Source of the DNA: Candidatus Sungiibacteriota bacterium
GTDB lineage: Bacteria; Patescibacteriota; Minisyncoccia; Sungbacterales; HO2-52-23
Assembly (NCBI GenBank): GCA_016196115.1
Contig: JACPYI010000002.1
Location: 1 to 35,975, forward strand
Length of the DNA: 35,975 nucleotides
Direction: 5' to 3'
Shown here: positions 2,707-28,811 of the stretch, piece by piece
Numbering within the stretch: position 1 is the stretch's first letter
Layout of the letters: each line of letters starts with the position of its first letter
The notes under the pieces: generated by a model
The model's database searches: none
The model's input: only the letters and a program-made list of their open reading frames with translations
Told to the model about the DNA's origin: nothing
Made by a program: the position numbers and the translations under genes

Positions 2707-3678
2707 ATGCAGTACCAAAAATGTTCTCTTGATCTCTATGTTGACTTCTTCATCGCAAGCCAGAAGCAGTATTCGGGGCTGGAACTCTCAAGGGTATCGC
2801 CTGATCCCATGGCGCACGATGCCGTAAGCCGGTGGCTGTCGAAGGAAAAGCTTACCCCCAAGATGCTGTGGCACGAAAGTCAGTATCTGATTGATCCGAA
2901 TGCCGGCTATCTCTCGATTGACGATAGCGTGCCTGACAAGCCCTACTCCCATGAAATCCCGCTTGTCAAAACTCAATACTCTGGCAAACACCATGGTCTT
3001 GTCAAAGGTATTGATATCGTGAATACGGTCTGGACTGACGGCGTCAAGATCATTCCCATTGACTATCGCATCTACGATCCGACCCATGATGGCAAAACCA
3101 AGAATGATCACGCGCGGGAAATGCTTACCATGGCTCAAAAGCGAGGATTGAGGCCGGAGTACGTCCTTATGGATGCATGGTTCACCTCGGTGGGTAATCT
3201 GAAAGCGATTACGCATCATGGCCGGAAATGGATCGGGGAGATCAAATCGAATCGTCTGGTTTCAACGAAGATGAATCAGTACGTCCCAGTCAAGAACTTG
3301 GATTGGACGAACAAAATCGTCCGCAAGGTCTGGCTCAAGGCATACGGGCGGATCGTGGTCAGCAAGATCGTTGCCCCAAACGGCGACATTGCCTACATTG
3401 CCACGAACGATCTGTCTCTTGATGATGCGGAGACGATCAAAACCCATTATGCCTGCCGATGGACGATTGAAACCTTCCATCGGGGAATCAAGGAGTGTAC
3501 TGGGATTGAAAGGTGCTATTCAACTCAAGAACGATCCCAACGAAACCACATTCTGTGCGCGTTCCTCGCATTCCTGAAGCTGGAATGGGAACGTATCCAG
3601 AACTCGATTTCATGGTATGAGCAGAAGTGGTCTATCCCGAGATTGGCGGTTACTGCTTATCTGGGGTCAAACGCGTAA
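2707..3678 (+). CDS. DDE transposase, IS4/IS701-like
   Basis: The 323-residue transposase has an RNase H-like catalytic core. The first acidic motif is SIDDSVPDKPYS (D72/D73), the second is VLMDAWFTS (D156), and the third is the YACRWTIETFHRG box carrying E255. The order and spacing fit the DDE enzymes of the IS4/IS701 group. The frame is intact and the terminal repeats are nearly identical, so the element may be active or recently so. The ATG at 2707 gives the family-typical N-terminus. No clear ribosome binding site is visible, but a hairpin lies immediately upstream. Assignment to IS701 rather than another IS4-like group needs an ISfinder comparison. Confidence 0.88.
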   Translation: MQYQKCSLDLYVDFFIASQKQYSGLELSRVSPDPMAHDAVSRWLSKEKLTPKMLWHESQYLIDPNAGYLSIDDSVPDKPYSHEIPLVKTQYSGKHHGLVKGIDIVNTVWTDGVKIIPIDYRIYDPTHDGKTKNDHAREMLTMAQKRGLRPEYVLMDAWFTSVGNLKAITHHGRKWIGEIKSNRLVSTKMNQYVPVKNLDWTNKIVRKVWLKAYGRIVVSKIVAPNGDIAYIATNDLSLDDAETIKTHYACRWTIETFHRGIKECTGIERCYSTQERSQRNHILCAFLAFLKLEWERIQNSISWYEQKWSIPRLAVTAYLGSNA

Positions 3679-8394: not shown

Positions 8395-8890
8395 ACACAA
8401 TCGCCAACTTCTAATCGCTAATCTATAATGAAATTATGAAAATGCATTTCAGGGAATTTAAGGTCTATAGAGATGCAAAAACCTTAGTAGTTCAAACATT
8501 CCGTTTGACGAGAAAGTTTTCAAGAGAATTTTATTATTTGTCAGATCAGATAAACAGAAGTGCTTTGTCAATTGTCCTTAATATTGCCGAAGGGTCGGCT
8601 AAAGGGAGTGACAAGGACTTTAATCGATACATAAAAAATTCTCTTGGGTCAGCAACAGAACTATCTGCAGCTTTTGAAATCGCGGAAGACCTTAGGTTGA
8701 TCACCAAGGAGGAATACGATACCCTTGATGCTGAAATACAAGAAGTTATCAAACAATTGGGTGGTTTCTCGAAATATTTGCGGCGCAATGATTAATCAAT
8801 GATCGCTAATCGATAATAAAAAATTCAAGATTAGTGATTGTAGATTTCTGATTGCGTGAGCGATTGGAGATTATAAGTTGGTGATTGCGT
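8395..8890 (+). other. Intervening sequence in 16S helix 6 (V1)
   Basis: The insertion of about 496 nt is bounded by an imperfect inverted repeat: 8395-8423 pairs with 8862-8890, 24 of 29 positions matching plus two G-U pairs. It extends helix 6 as a long duplex of the kind cut out by RNase III in rRNA intervening sequences. It carries the four-helix bundle ORF (8436-8795). It has no group I or group II core, so it is probably excised without religation or retained. Confidence 0.8.
8436..8795 (+). CDS. Four-helix bundle protein of the rRNA intervening-sequence family (S23/TIGR02436 type)
   Basis: The 119-residue product has the family hallmarks: a start like FREFKVYRDAKTLVVQTFRLT, then SDQINRSALSIVLNIAEGS, then NRYIKNSLGSATELSAAFEIA, and a C-terminal LGGFSKYLR helix. 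Such proteins are known from intervening sequences in 23S rRNA genes of Leptospira and Coxiella and also occur as free genes and as diversity-generating-retroelement accessory proteins. Here the ORF lies inside 16S helix 6, in the rRNA sense direction. A perfect TATAAT (8424-8429) ends 6 nt before the ATG, suggesting its own leaderless transcript, although no good -35 box is visible. Its molecular role is unknown; basic residues and the location suggest nucleic acid binding. Confidence 0.88.
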   Translation: MKMHFREFKVYRDAKTLVVQTFRLTRKFSREFYYLSDQINRSALSIVLNIAEGSAKGSDKDFNRYIKNSLGSATELSAAFEIAEDLRLITKEEYDTLDAEIQEVIKQLGGFSKYLRRND

Positions 8891-9246
8891 TAGCGGCGAA
8901 CGAGTTAGTAACACCTTGGCACTTACCTCACAGACGGGCATAACTCCGCGAAAGCGGGGCTAATTCCCGATATTATCTCCGTCGCAAGACGGCGATGAAA
9001 GGCCGCAAGGCCACTGCGAGAGAGGCCTAGGTCCTATCAGGTAGTTGGCGGGGTAACGGCCCACCAAGCCGATGACGGGTAGGGGGCGTGAGAGCGCGAC
9101 CCCCAACGGCGGAATTGAGATACGGTCCGCACACCTACGGGTGGCAGCAGTCAAGAACATTCGACAATGGGCGAAAGCCTGATCGAGCGACGCCGCGTGC
9201 AGGAAGAAGGGTTTCGGCCTGTAAACTGCTTTTCACCGGGAACAAG

Positions 9247-9416
9247 TCCGGCCCTTTTTGGATTCTTGTGTATTGTGTCATCCTCGCGAAACTTGTCCTC
9301 GTGAAAACGGGGAGCGGGGATCCAGAAAAACTGGATTCCCGATCAAGTCTGGGGGAATGACAAGGAAGATAGTAACATACTTCTTTATTTTTGTCAAGAG
9401 TCCAAAAAGGGCCGGA
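9247..9416 (+). other. Intervening sequence in 16S helix 17 (V3) built on a dispersed repeat
   Basis: A 22-bp stem (9247-9268 with 9395-9416, one G-U) extends helix 17. Between the arms lies a copy, in reverse orientation, of the GTCATTCCC repeat family (about 9277-9363), including a GGATTCCCGATCAAGTC core also found upstream of rmuC and between atp genes. There is no ORF. The repeat appears to have landed in the tip of helix 17. Confidence 0.8.
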
Positions 9417-9512
9417 TTGAGCGTACCGGTGGAATAAGAGGTTGGTAACTACGTGCCAGCACCCGCGGTAATACGTAGACCTCAAGCGTTATCCGGATTT
9501 ATTGGGCGTAAA

Positions 9513-9526
9513 GGGTCTCGAACACC
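9513..9526 (+). other. Deletion junction in 16S (helices 21-23 absent)
   Basis: The conserved GGGCGTAAAGGGTCTC runs directly into GAACACCAAAGGCGAAGG. In E. coli the corresponding blocks are about 135 nt apart (roughly 579 to 713). Helix 20 remains pairable (GTCTC with GAGAC at 9573-9577), but helices 21, 22 (5' strand) and 23 with the 690 loop are missing. Confidence 0.75.
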
Positions 9527-9888
9527 AAAGGCGAAGGCAAACTCCTGGCCATTACCTGACACTCATGAGACGAAAGCGTGGGCAGAAAAAAGGATTAGAT
9601 ACCCTTGTATTCCACGCCGTAAACGATGCACGCTCGTTGTTCCGAGTATCGACCCTCGGAGTGACTTAGCTTACGCGTTAAGCGTGCCGCCTGGGAAGTA
9701 CGAGCGCAAGCTTAAAACTCAAAGGAATAGACGGGGATTCGCACAAGCGGTGGACCATGTGGTTCAATTCGACGGCAACCGAGGAACCTCACCAGGGCTT
9801 GAAATGGCAGTGACATTCCGGGGAAACTTGGAACTTCTCACAAGGACGCTGTCACAGGTGATGCACGGCCCTCGTCAGTTCGTGATGT

Positions 9889-10712
9889 GATCCAAAAATT
9901 CGCATCCTCGCGGAGTAATCCGCGATGTAAAACTCGGCTCATATTGGTGAAGTCCCGCAATTTGTGGGATAATACCAAGGGAAGTTGGAAAATTATATGT
10001 CGGTTGTCTTTCGAGCCCGAAAAAATCAAGAATTGATTCTCACGAATCGCCAATTTGAAATTATCATTGGCTCTCTCTTGGGAGACGCGTACCTCAGTCC
10101 GCTCGGGAAAGTTCAGTTTGAACATAGTACCAAAGCGGAAGAATATCTGAAGTGGAAATTCCAAGAACTTGATGGAGCGCGATATAAAAAAATTGGATAT
10201 GTGGAAAGAACAGTAAGCGGAAATCTTACGTTTTCTTGCCGGTTTTGGACAAGACAATTCTTTCGGGCATTACGAAACGAAATCTATAACCCTCAAGGCA
10301 AAAAATATATTTCTTCAGGATGGCTTCAAAAAATTACTCCGCTCGCTTTGGCCGTCTGGTATATGGATGACGGCCACTATGAGAAAGCAAAAAAGAGATG
10401 CATTATTGCCACTGACGGTTTTAGCGATGACGACCGAGAAAAACTGCAAAAGTTTTTGAAGGATACATTTGATCTGAAGATTACGATCTGGAGTAATGGC
10501 AAGATAGCCATGACTCAATTGGAGACACTGAAATTCTTTAAGATCATCGATCCTTTTAGAATCGAGTGCATGGCATATAAATTTCCTAACCCCTTAACGA
10601 CTAATCCCGGAAGGGGATTGATGGTCCCGACAAGATCGGGATCATAAAACGCCGAGCTCCTTCAGTATTATATTGAAGGATGAAGGTATAGTCTGGGTCT
10701 GTAAAAAGACCG
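9889..10712 (+). ncRNA. Group I self-splicing intron in 16S (near E. coli 1078)
   Basis: Splice sites can be deduced from pairing. P1 joins exon GATGT (9884-9888) to GCATC (9902-9906) with a U-G pair at the 5' site. P10 joins the adjoining AATTC (9897-9901) to the 3' exon GAATT (10713-10717). The terminal G is 10712. P2 is CGCGGA/TCCGCG with a GTAA tetraloop (9909-9924). P3 is CTCGGC (9933-9938) with GCCGAG (10651-10656). P5 spans 9953-9969, P8 10659-10679, the P7 strand GGTATAGTC lies near 10685-10693, and P9 is 10696-10711. The joined exons match the length of the E. coli sequence exactly. The intron is 824 nt and carries an endonuclease ORF. Confidence 0.9.
9997..10647 (+). CDS. LAGLIDADG homing endonuclease of the 16S intron
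   Basis: The 216-residue product has two LAGLIDADG-type motifs: IIGSLLGDAYLS (about residues 23-34) and LAVWYMDDG (about 118-126), each with the catalytic acidic residue (D30 and D125). This is the two-motif, monomeric arrangement. It would cut an intronless 16S allele at the exon junction and drive intron spread, and may assist folding. The ORF sits between P6-side sequences and P3', so translation does not cover the core P3-P5 strands. ATG 9997 is preferred over TTG 9985. The frame is intact, suggesting a recently active element. Confidence 0.9.
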   Translation: MSVVFRARKNQELILTNRQFEIIIGSLLGDAYLSPLGKVQFEHSTKAEEYLKWKFQELDGARYKKIGYVERTVSGNLTFSCRFWTRQFFRALRNEIYNPQGKKYISSGWLQKITPLALAVWYMDDGHYEKAKKRCIIATDGFSDDDREKLQKFLKDTFDLKITIWSNGKIAMTQLETLKFFKIIDPFRIECMAYKFPNPLTTNPGRGLMVPTRSGS

Positions 10713-11154
10713 GAATTGTTCCCTTAAGTGGGGTAACGAACGCAACCCCCGTTGCATGTTATATGTGTCATGCGAGACTGCCTTCGTATAGAAGGAGGAA
10801 GGAGGGGATGACGCGAGGTCAGCGTGTCCCTTTGATGCCCTGGGCTACACACGTGGTACAATGGCGCGTACAATGGGTCGCCAAGTCGCGAGACGGAGCT
10901 AATCCCATCAAAACGCGCCCCAGTTCAGATTGGAGTCTGCAACTCGACTCCATGAAGCCGGAATCGCTAGTAAACGCAAATCAGCTACGTTGCGTTGAAT
11001 ACGTTCTCGAATCTTGTACTCACCGCCCGTCACGTTAAGGGAGCCGGGAGTGCCCGAAAGTCCGGATTCGTCCGGAATTACGGTAAGCTCGGTAACATGA
11101 ACGAAGTCGTAACAAGGCATCCGTAGCGGAAGCTGTGGATGGAACATTTCCTAC

Positions 11155-11520
11155 TAGGGAATTTATAGAAGCGAAATACGCATGCTCGGATGGGATATAT
11201 CGCGCGGTCCTTTTCGGAACTCGGGATATGTCTTGAGCACTGCCGCTTCTCCCTAAGGTCGTTTCCCGACTCGTCGGGATATAGTGTTGGTCTTGCCCTC
11301 CTACGCTCTATGAGCTTCGGAAGGGTCTTCTTTCGTTAAAGCTTTGGAGACGTTTCTTCTCCTATTGTATTGGGAGGACTCGTCCTCCGAAGCCTTGGCG
11401 AAGGAGGAGAGCTTTAAATTAAGACCCTGCGGTTCCGTCAGTGAACGGAACGCCCTCCGACGCGCAAGCTTTGGAGGGTACAATCGGAACAGCTGGAAGA
11501 AGACAATTTATTTTTCTTGC
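11155..11520 (+). other. Structured 16S trailer rich in palindromes
   Basis: No gene is seen. A long nested fold is possible: GGGTCTT (11323-11329) with AAGACCC (11421-11427) and TTAAAGCT (11336-11343) with AGCTTTAA (11410-11417). Inside it lie degenerate copies of a CCTCCGAAGC...GCGAAGGAGG palindrome, and CCCTCC/GGAGGG (11453-11478) follows. These look like dispersed repeats collected in an untranslated spacer. Confidence 0.55.
11482..11498 (+). other. 3' arm of the pre-16S processing stem
   Basis: AATCGGAACAGCTGGAA is the exact reverse complement of 8277-8293. The pair closes a loop of about 3.2 kb that contains the whole 16S precursor. Confidence 0.85.
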
Positions 11521-11588: not shown

Positions 11589-11660
11589 GGGCGACTAGCT
11601 CAGTGGTAGAGCGCTTCACTGATAATGAAGAGGTCGGAAGTTCGATCCTTCCGTCGCCCA
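11589..11660 (+). tRNA. tRNA-Ile(GAU)
   Basis: A 72-nt cloverleaf: acceptor GGGCGAC/GTCGCCC, anticodon stem CTTCA/TGAAG with loop CTGATAA (anticodon GAT at 11621-11623), T arm GGAAG/CTTCC, discriminator A at 11660. CCA is not encoded. tRNA-Ile(GAU) usually lies between 16S and 23S; here it has its own promoter and leads into mnmA, the start codon of which lies one base after the discriminator. Confidence 0.97.
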
Positions 11661-11661
11661 C

Positions 11662-12837: not shown

Positions 12838-12928
12838 AGTGAGAAGGCAAGGTCTTGCCTGACGGTGCGATTTATTGTATTCATACATCAAGAGCAGTTT
12901 TTTGATAACTAAAGAAAGGACGCGCATC

Positions 12929-14202
12929 ATGACTATGCGTAAACATAAAAGGTATGGACAAACCGGACCCTATCGTTCCGAGGCGTTTGGACTCGACACC
13001 GATCTCGAAGAATCTCCCTACGAGCTGGAAGAGAATTTTGATAATCTGATCGCCCGTTATTTTGGGGATGTGCGCCAGTTTGATTTGCTCAACCGTGCCC
13101 AAGAGCATGCCCTGTGGAGTCGCATTGAGAGTGCGCAAAAGCGCGAACGCCGCATCTTGTGTCAAACGCCAATGGCTATTTCCGTTCTGGACGATTTTTT
13201 GGATGAAGTGCGGCATAGCGAACCACCAAAAGGTACAAGAGAAAAGCATCGTGCCTTATTTGCCCGGGAAAAAGAACAATGCATCCGTTTTGTTCAAAGC
13301 ATATCCTGCGAGGTTGACGAGATCGCGCATAGCCTGGGGGCAGCACGTTCCAGATCGGAATTGCGCGGTATATCGCGACGGTTGTTTAAGACGTGGGAAA
13401 CGCTATTGGCGTATCCTGAAGTATTTGAGAACATTCGCCAGAAGCTGCAGGAGGAGTATGACAAGAAGCAAAACGACGTTGCCCTGTCGGGAATATATCG
13501 CAGATGGCAGAAAGCCGGTCATAGACTCGAAGGGATGAAAGCCGGCATGATCCGCGCCAACCTGCGCCTGGTCATTCATATGGCGAATCGCTATCGGGGC
13601 AGCGGCGTACCGTTTCTTGACCTGATCCAAGAAGGCAATATTGGCCTGATGCGCGCGCTCGAAAAATTCGAGCCGAGCCGCGGGCTCAAATTTGTTACCT
13701 ACGCGCATTGGTGGGTGCATCAAGCAATCACTCGTGCCATTTCCCAGCAATACCGCACCGTCCGGCTCCCCAACCACATCGGTGAGCGGAAAAACAAACT
13801 GCGCGCTGCAGTGGATCGTCTCTTGAGCCAGTACGGTCGGCATCCCACCACGGAAGAATTGAGCCGCGCATTGCGTTGGACACTCGTGAAAGTGGAAGAA
13901 TTGCAAGCGGCGGTGCAGCCTGTTGTTCGTCTTCAGCAACCGTCGGACAGCGACGACGGGAATTTGATGGACACCCTGGAAGGCAGTGCCTGGCCGACTG
14001 CCTCGCCAGTTTGACGGAGCGCGAAGCCTTTATCTTGCGCCTGCGCTATGGTCTGGAGTCAGAACAACCCCACACACTGCAAGAAATCGCCGATATGCTT
14101 GAGATAAGTCGTGAGCGTGTCCGCCAGATCGAGCGGCAAGCATTTGAGAAGCTGCGCCAACCGCATCGCAGTGCCATGCTGGCCGATTTTGTCAGTCCCT
14201 AA
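12929..14202 (+). pseudogene. Sigma-70 family RNA polymerase sigma factor, frameshifted between regions 3 and 4
   Basis: The frame opening at 12929 encodes region 1.2 (NLIARYFGDVRQFDLL), a non-conserved spacer, region 2 (NLRLVIHMANRYRGSG, DLIQEGNIGLMRALEKFEP, FVTYAHWWVHQAI), and region 3 up to DDGNLMDTLEG. It then stops at 14012-14014. Region 4 (ASLTEREAFILRLRYGL and the helix-turn-helix SRERVRQIERQAFEKL) continues in another frame to 14202. Compared with RpoD-type factors, about 20 residues of linker are missing, so a deletion of non-multiple-of-three length at about 13985-13995 explains the shift. It is broken as written: a true pseudogene, an assembly error or, less likely, recoding. AAAGGA 8 nt before ATG 12929 decides that start over ATG 12875. 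Confidence 0.85.
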
Positions 14203-28738: not shown

Positions 28739-28811
28739 TGGACCTGACGGGATTTGCACCCGTTACGCCGCTTGCGAAGGGCGGAATTTTACTACATAAA
28801 ACTACAGGCCC
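28739..28811 (-). tRNA. tRNA, probably tRNA-Arg(UCG), with unusual features
   Basis: A 73-nt cloverleaf on the strand opposite to the atp genes: acceptor GGGCCTG/CAGGTCC (one G-U), T arm ACGGG-TGCAAAT-CCCGT, and an AT-rich D arm (GTTT...AAAT). The anticodon stem CCGCC/AGCGG has a C-A mismatch next to a loop CTTCGCA; with U33 in place the anticodon reads TCG (Arg), but C at position 37 is unusual. A second sequence, TGGACCTG, just 5' of the acceptor can also pair with the 3' strand. Cys(GCA) is an alternative reading that would need C33. Confidence 0.65.

Follow-up and report, generated by a model that had tools for sequence, protein, structure and literature searches.

The 16S rRNA gene analysed here ends in an altered anti-Shine-Dalgarno (anti-SD) sequence. 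Probably this tail is a real, inherited anti-SD change in the Sungbacteria, one of numerous changes that arose separately in this Parcubacteria class, and reflects drift under a hairpin constraint in organisms whose translation initiation is mostly independent of the Shine-Dalgarno (SD) sequence. The window, meaning the whole 35,975-nucleotide stretch of DNA that was analysed (G000:C22:1-35975), comes from a genome of 841,823 bases in 39 contigs (G000), and its organism is placed with Candidatus Sungbacteria (Parcubacteria). Textbooks treat the anti-SD as universal. Its repeated loss or alteration within one class offers natural replicates in which the purpose of SD pairing can be studied, and a tail that changed while the mRNAs kept some of the old signal and did not shift to match it challenges the simple idea of SD/anti-SD co-evolution.

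A sequence-only reading of the window had claimed a change of the anti-SD core from CCUCC to UUUCC, and the claim is confirmed (Table 1). The E. coli tail is GGATCACCTCCTTA; relative to it, C-to-U changes are present at 11147 and 11148, and an A replaces U1532 (E. coli numbering). A normal helix 45 precedes GGAACATTTCCTAC, the stretch that closes a full-length RF00177 match. The pairing count given for AGGAGG with UUUCCU, four Watson-Crick and two G-U pairs, was also correct. When all 39 contigs were searched with RF00177, the window 16S was the only match; a further copy with CCTCC did not turn up.

Table 1. Coordinates of the 16S gene, its tail and neighbouring features in the window
Feature	Position	Strand	Basis
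16S rRNA gene, with two inserts and without 132 nt near 9519/9520	8815..11154	+	RF00177 1-1533, 1003.9 bits
16S insert of ~190 nt, 22-nt terminal inverted repeats 9247-9268 / 9395-9416 (95%)	9235..9422	+	blastn gap vs G009
Intron-like 16S insert of ~822 nt, LAGLIDADG endonuclease ORF 9985-10647	9891..10712	+	blastn gap; PF03161, E 8.6e-32
16S 3′ tail GGAACATTTCCTAC, altered anti-SD core UUUCC at 11147-11151	11141..11154	+	Sequence; identical in same-genus G001
Predicted pre-rRNA hairpin, 5′ arm (altered anti-SD)	11146..11152	+	RNAfold -4.4 kcal/mol, 7 pairs with 11156-11162
Predicted hairpin, 3′ arm, in transcribed spacer	11156..11162	+	RNAfold; covariation across lineages
tRNA-Ile(GAT), downstream of the 16S spacer	11589..11661	+	ARAGORN; RF00005

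Comparison with the 16S of close relatives, which had been proposed as a check, shows a lineage-conserved change. A different species of the same genus (G001) has the identical tail followed by the same TAGGGAATT, related changes occur within the order, and JACQRW010000008.1 (Sungiibacteriota) also has the window's tail. The tail pattern ATTTCYT was found in nine records from named genomes: four Sungbacteria/Sungiibacteriota, two Parcubacteria group, one Patescibacteria group, one bacterium and one Ruminococcus, the last of which (L138) is not rRNA. These records are the ground for placing the window with Candidatus Sungbacteria. Because a second species of the genus carries the same tail, the tail is not an assembly error. 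A broader artefact of assembly, binning or a pseudogene at the 16S 3′ end is very unlikely. It could draw on the 132-nt gap inside the same 16S gene and on foreign-looking 16S ends in some bins (G128:C6, G085:C118, likely G213:C15), but it would have to account for an identical tail in another species, for tails that members of a family share, and for matched substitutions in the spacer.

The anti-SD change is concentrated in this class and is recurrent. A helix-45 pattern that exposes the tail matched in 172 of the 256 genomes of the class, and 148 tails were typed, 147 among the matches listed plus G005, a closed single-contig Sungbacterium. Sixty tails have CCTCC, 20 only CTCC, 10 only TCC and 58 none, so that 88 of 148 are without CCTCC; these counts leave out genomes with an off-pattern helix 45 or a 16S broken at contig ends. 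Among 64 families, 21 hold an intact tail and 43 hold none. Elsewhere in the phylum, 10 of 119 genomes, counted by eye, are without CCTCC, and six of these form one family, f167, in which G516 has reached ATTTCC independently. The members of f167 (G481, G516, G468 and others) show TCTCC, CTTCC and TTTCC tails together with matching G-to-A changes in the spacer. The sequence-only reading had leaned on the rarity of such a change. The alteration of the anti-SD is real, but the argument from rarity is weakened because more than half of the tails typed in the class are altered. Some bins contain a second or foreign-looking 16S end (G128:C6, G085:C118, G213:C2/C15 and G020:C18), which calls for caution in the 16S-based placement of these MAGs.

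Changed tails often keep their pairing with the spacer just downstream through matched changes on both sides. Many canonical tails pair likewise with the spacer (CUCC with GGAG). For 76 distinct changed tails (70 in the class, six outside), a tail's own arm-spacer pairing beats that with re-dealt spacers, which were as good in 0 of 500 deals at each of four cut points (z -7 to -8). Sixteen tails that could be aligned have 94.8% of cells paired, and two pairs switch from CG to UA on both sides, in five and four sequences. The number of cells changed on both sides in these 16 exceeded all shuffles (0 of 500 as high), while neither the number of pairs with a change on both sides nor that of further pair types exceeded the 500 shuffles. 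This covariation is only illustrative, because the 16 tails were picked for fitting one length, and the test ignores relatedness. The hairpin is not universal, as none is predicted in 34 of 68 tails without CTCC. We infer that the pairing may act as a precursor hairpin for 3′-end formation.

The mRNAs of the window's genome give no sign of an AGGAAA code; they retain a few classical SDs, and -10-like boxes lie near many starts. We sampled 168 ORFs from 177,647 bases, called by length with the leftmost ATG, and counted motifs from -18 to -4, with stretches further upstream and within the CDS as controls. AGGAG or GGAGG precedes 15 of 168 ORFs (2 and 4 in the controls), a minority of genes. AAAGGAGN4-9ATG occurs 31 times across the genome against 14 for the reversed motif; GGAGGN4-8ATG shows almost no excess, with 150 occurrences against 144 at the wrong spacing (N14-18), a control that is not frame-balanced. 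Strong classical SD enrichment served by a second, intact 16S had been named as evidence that would speak against the altered tail. The enrichment exists in modest form, while the search of the 39 contigs gave no second 16S.

A co-evolved pair, in which the UUUCCU tail is read by AGGAAA-type SDs as in a natural orthogonal ribosome, has perfect complementarity in its favour, on paper only. Such a pair predicts enrichment of AGGAAA before genes, and the sequence-only reading had suggested this motif as the new mRNA partner. Neither the motif (1 of 168, with 1 and 0 in the controls) nor AGGAA/GGAAA (7 of 168 against 6 and 6) is enriched in the window's genome, and four Sungbacteria together have 17 of 486 against 11 and 20. 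When 16 C/U variants of the core were compared in the window's genome, UUUCCU failed to tell upstream regions apart from controls. Hybridisation of the organism's own tail is not stronger upstream of starts than in controls (d=+0.32, p=0.93), in a test that is sensitive to composition. Mean duplex energies were too composition-driven to use, and three columns were spoiled by N (G042 CDS, G034 CDS and the G087 far region). The co-evolved pair is therefore highly improbable.

The suggestion that the altered tail goes along with many leaderless-looking starts fared better. TAnnnT lies just upstream of 50 of the 168 ORFs, compared with 24 further upstream and 10 in CDS, and peaks 6 and 8 nt from the ATG, so that a -10-like box stands at leaderless distance from many starts. 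Such -10-like starts are also found in genomes with intact CCTCC, for example G122 (12 against 1 of 93), which further weakens the argument from rarity.

Under the drift account that we favour, selection on CCUCC would be weak. According to the accessible part of PMC10582724, the KH domain of Era reads GAUCA plus CCUCC. Era was over the cut-off in 0 of 55 relatives, and the matches below it covered only the GTPase portion of the model. An absence of Era from relatives, together with SD pairing that serves few genes, could leave CCUCC under weak selection. Era loss alone does not explain which lineages changed, because Era is below the cut-off in relatives with intact CCTCC too. Loss of bS21 was set aside as an explanation; bS21-like matches are weak, found in 38 of 55 relatives and not in the window's genome. 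The tail would then drift by C-to-U changes, with the precursor hairpin used in 3′-end formation as the remaining constraint. In the window organism UCCU could still be matched by AGGA, and wobble would let the final two G's pair with U; old SDs would thereby stay partly paired and be under no need to change. SD-independent starts would then make up most initiation, a share of them probably leaderless. For the Sungbacteria this plain account works, because C-to-U changes keep G-U pairing, AGGA pairs with UCCU, and few genes depend on an SD.

If tail and SD evolved together, SDs should be absent where CCTCC is gone. Contrary to that expectation, the SD signal across the class is independent of the 16S tail. 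AAAGGAG signal and reversed control are 2181/695 in 60 intact genomes and 2553/776 in 68 genomes with a lost anti-SD (p=0.93; by family p=0.73). Binned by the predicted energy of tail:AAAGGAGGU pairing from strongest to weakest, the ratios are flat (3.14, 3.82, 2.58, 3.15 and 3.78). The ratio of right to wrong spacing for GGAGG does not differ between the 60 intact genomes and the 58 with none of the core (p=0.64). In sampled ORFs, SDs precede 25 of 420 in the intact set (4 and 7 in the controls), 81 of 1181 in the lost set (19 and 32), and 44 of 486 in the four Sungbacteria (7 and 14). SD-like motifs have thus not been lost with the anti-SD class-wide. There are exceptions of both kinds: AAAGGAG has no excess in the lost genomes G009, G036, G145 and G223, nor in the intact genomes G035, G063 and G127, and the ORF-level signal is absent in f40 (G261, G064) and f18 (G128).

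These results raise the matter of who reads SDs where the tail cannot. In f39, f27, f21, f24 and f52 the tails hardly pair with an SD, and the wobble account fails there. An SD motif without a tail complement means either another reader or help without a specific partner. A hidden exon past an unseen intron was rejected: no GGATCACC-like site lies downstream of the tail in eight loci read over 3.0 to 15.6 kb, which contain only scattered CCTCCT or ACCTCC. A separate rRNA piece was also rejected after a scan of 31 genomes for GGNNCACCTCCTT, one RNA form, which recovered the 16S ends in four intact controls and, outside them, isolated chance-like matches. GGATCACCTCCTT was found in G213 and G128, both of which resemble mixed bins.

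Possibly, though less likely than not, SDs in genomes that lack an anti-SD are remnants, or their only benefit is that of an unstructured, purine-rich leader. The accessible part of PMC7043885 describes E. coli ribosomes with altered anti-SDs that still choose correct starts, with A-rich leaders helping, and the SD-bearing genes are a minority in the lost set (81 of 1181). The spacing of 5-9 nt is sharp and looks selected, however, as does persistence of an AAAGGAG excess in 16 of the 17 families with tail:SD dG above -1, and the equally purine-rich AGGAA/GGAAA is not enriched in the lost set (37 against 41 and 42 of 1181). Somewhat doubtful is a reading by another partner, be it a platform protein, a separate CCUCC RNA, or a mature 16S end unlike the encoded one. 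Those 17 families comprise 26 genomes with almost no tail complement to AAAGGAGG, and AAAGGAGN4-9ATG counts of 937/248 make their SD signal as strong as that of the 60 genomes with CCTCC. SDs also precede 13 of 139 ORFs in G005 (3 and 5 in the controls), 9 of 59 on the 16S-bearing contig G042:C24 (1 and 2), and 42 of 454 on ten 16S-bearing contigs, Sungbacteria included (8 and 13); the signal in G005 and G042:C24 counts against mixed bins as its source. A Pfam scan of 20 SD-bearing genes (14 from G042, six from G111) left seven without a match and returned FtsH-like, IF-2-like, sigma-70, permease and methyltransferase proteins among the others, so the genes concerned are not only mobile ones, and core genes are included. 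Against such a partner stand the lack of a separate GGNNCACCTCCTT 3′ end in most of the genomes without an anti-SD (one RNA form) and of CCTCC close downstream in the loci read. G005 is not a pure case because G-U pairing still allows its tail to match AAAGGAG, and median spacing differs only weakly (7 against 8.5 nt, p 0.03). It is rather unlikely that in many Parcubacteria SDs are still used while some other ribosomal component, a separate RNA or a 16S end changed after transcription has taken over the anti-SD function, freeing the encoded tail to evolve as half of a precursor hairpin. If canonical SDs do persist without a 16S complement, there is a second SD reader, or SD enrichment alone is not evidence of rRNA pairing. 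Either outcome, if true, would alter both the prediction and the interpretation of start sites.

Candidatus Campbellbacteria and Wolfebacteria are Parcubacteria. Loss of CCUCC in Parcubacteria is therefore not new, as category iv in the accessible part of PMC10783764 (2024) lists Candidatus Campbellbacteria, Wolfebacteria, Absconditabacteria and Peregrinibacteria without CCUCC. These are candidate phyla, as here, but single genomes in which SDs were judged by binding to the own tail, whereas our survey is class-wide; that part of the paper makes no mention of Sungbacteria, class-wide extent, spacer covariation, or canonical SDs kept without a complement. In its category iii, SD-abundant genomes without CCUCC, leaders bind the altered tail, unlike those of the window's genome as judged by the composition-sensitive hybridisation test (p=0.93). 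SD-like motifs have been reported lost along with the anti-SD in other groups (Lim et al. 2012, conference abstract PMC3522020; Amin et al. 2018, PMC6107228, accessible part). Such genomes resemble the present one, with its single RF00177 match and UUUCC tail, in having no 16S copy with CCUCC, and are commonly host-dependent or reduced; they lose SDs, whereas here a weak SD signal remains in the window's genome and a clear one in several relatives. SD and anti-SD are likewise uncoupled in Bacteroidota (Flavobacterium; PMC6847099, in the part available), where it is the SDs that are missing while the anti-SD remains, the reverse of the present case. A literature search, with subscription papers and preprints largely outside it, returned partial texts in which no report of class-wide extent, spacer covariation or SD retention was seen.

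Several other features of the window deserve mention. Compared by blastn with G009 and G005, the window 16S has a 132-nt gap at 9519/9520, within the helix 21-23 region. Since the 16S is single-copy and this region is functionally important, the gap is probably an assembly fault; the assembly is suspicious at this point, though not at the tail. The smaller of the two 16S inserts resembles a small mobile element or intervening sequence. The endonuclease ORF of the larger insert belongs to the LAGLIDADG_2 family, and Rfam matched only SSU rRNA, with no intron family, at E up to 0.1. A sigma-70 gene at 12875-14202 is split across two frames by a frameshift or sequencing error, with regions 2-3 in one ORF and region 4 in the next. 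An Rfam tRNA match at 28739-28811 on the minus strand (43.1 bits), absent from the ARAGORN output, could be a tRNA that is degenerate or unusual. The window also has two DDE transposase ORFs, from different families, at 136-656 and 2707-3678.
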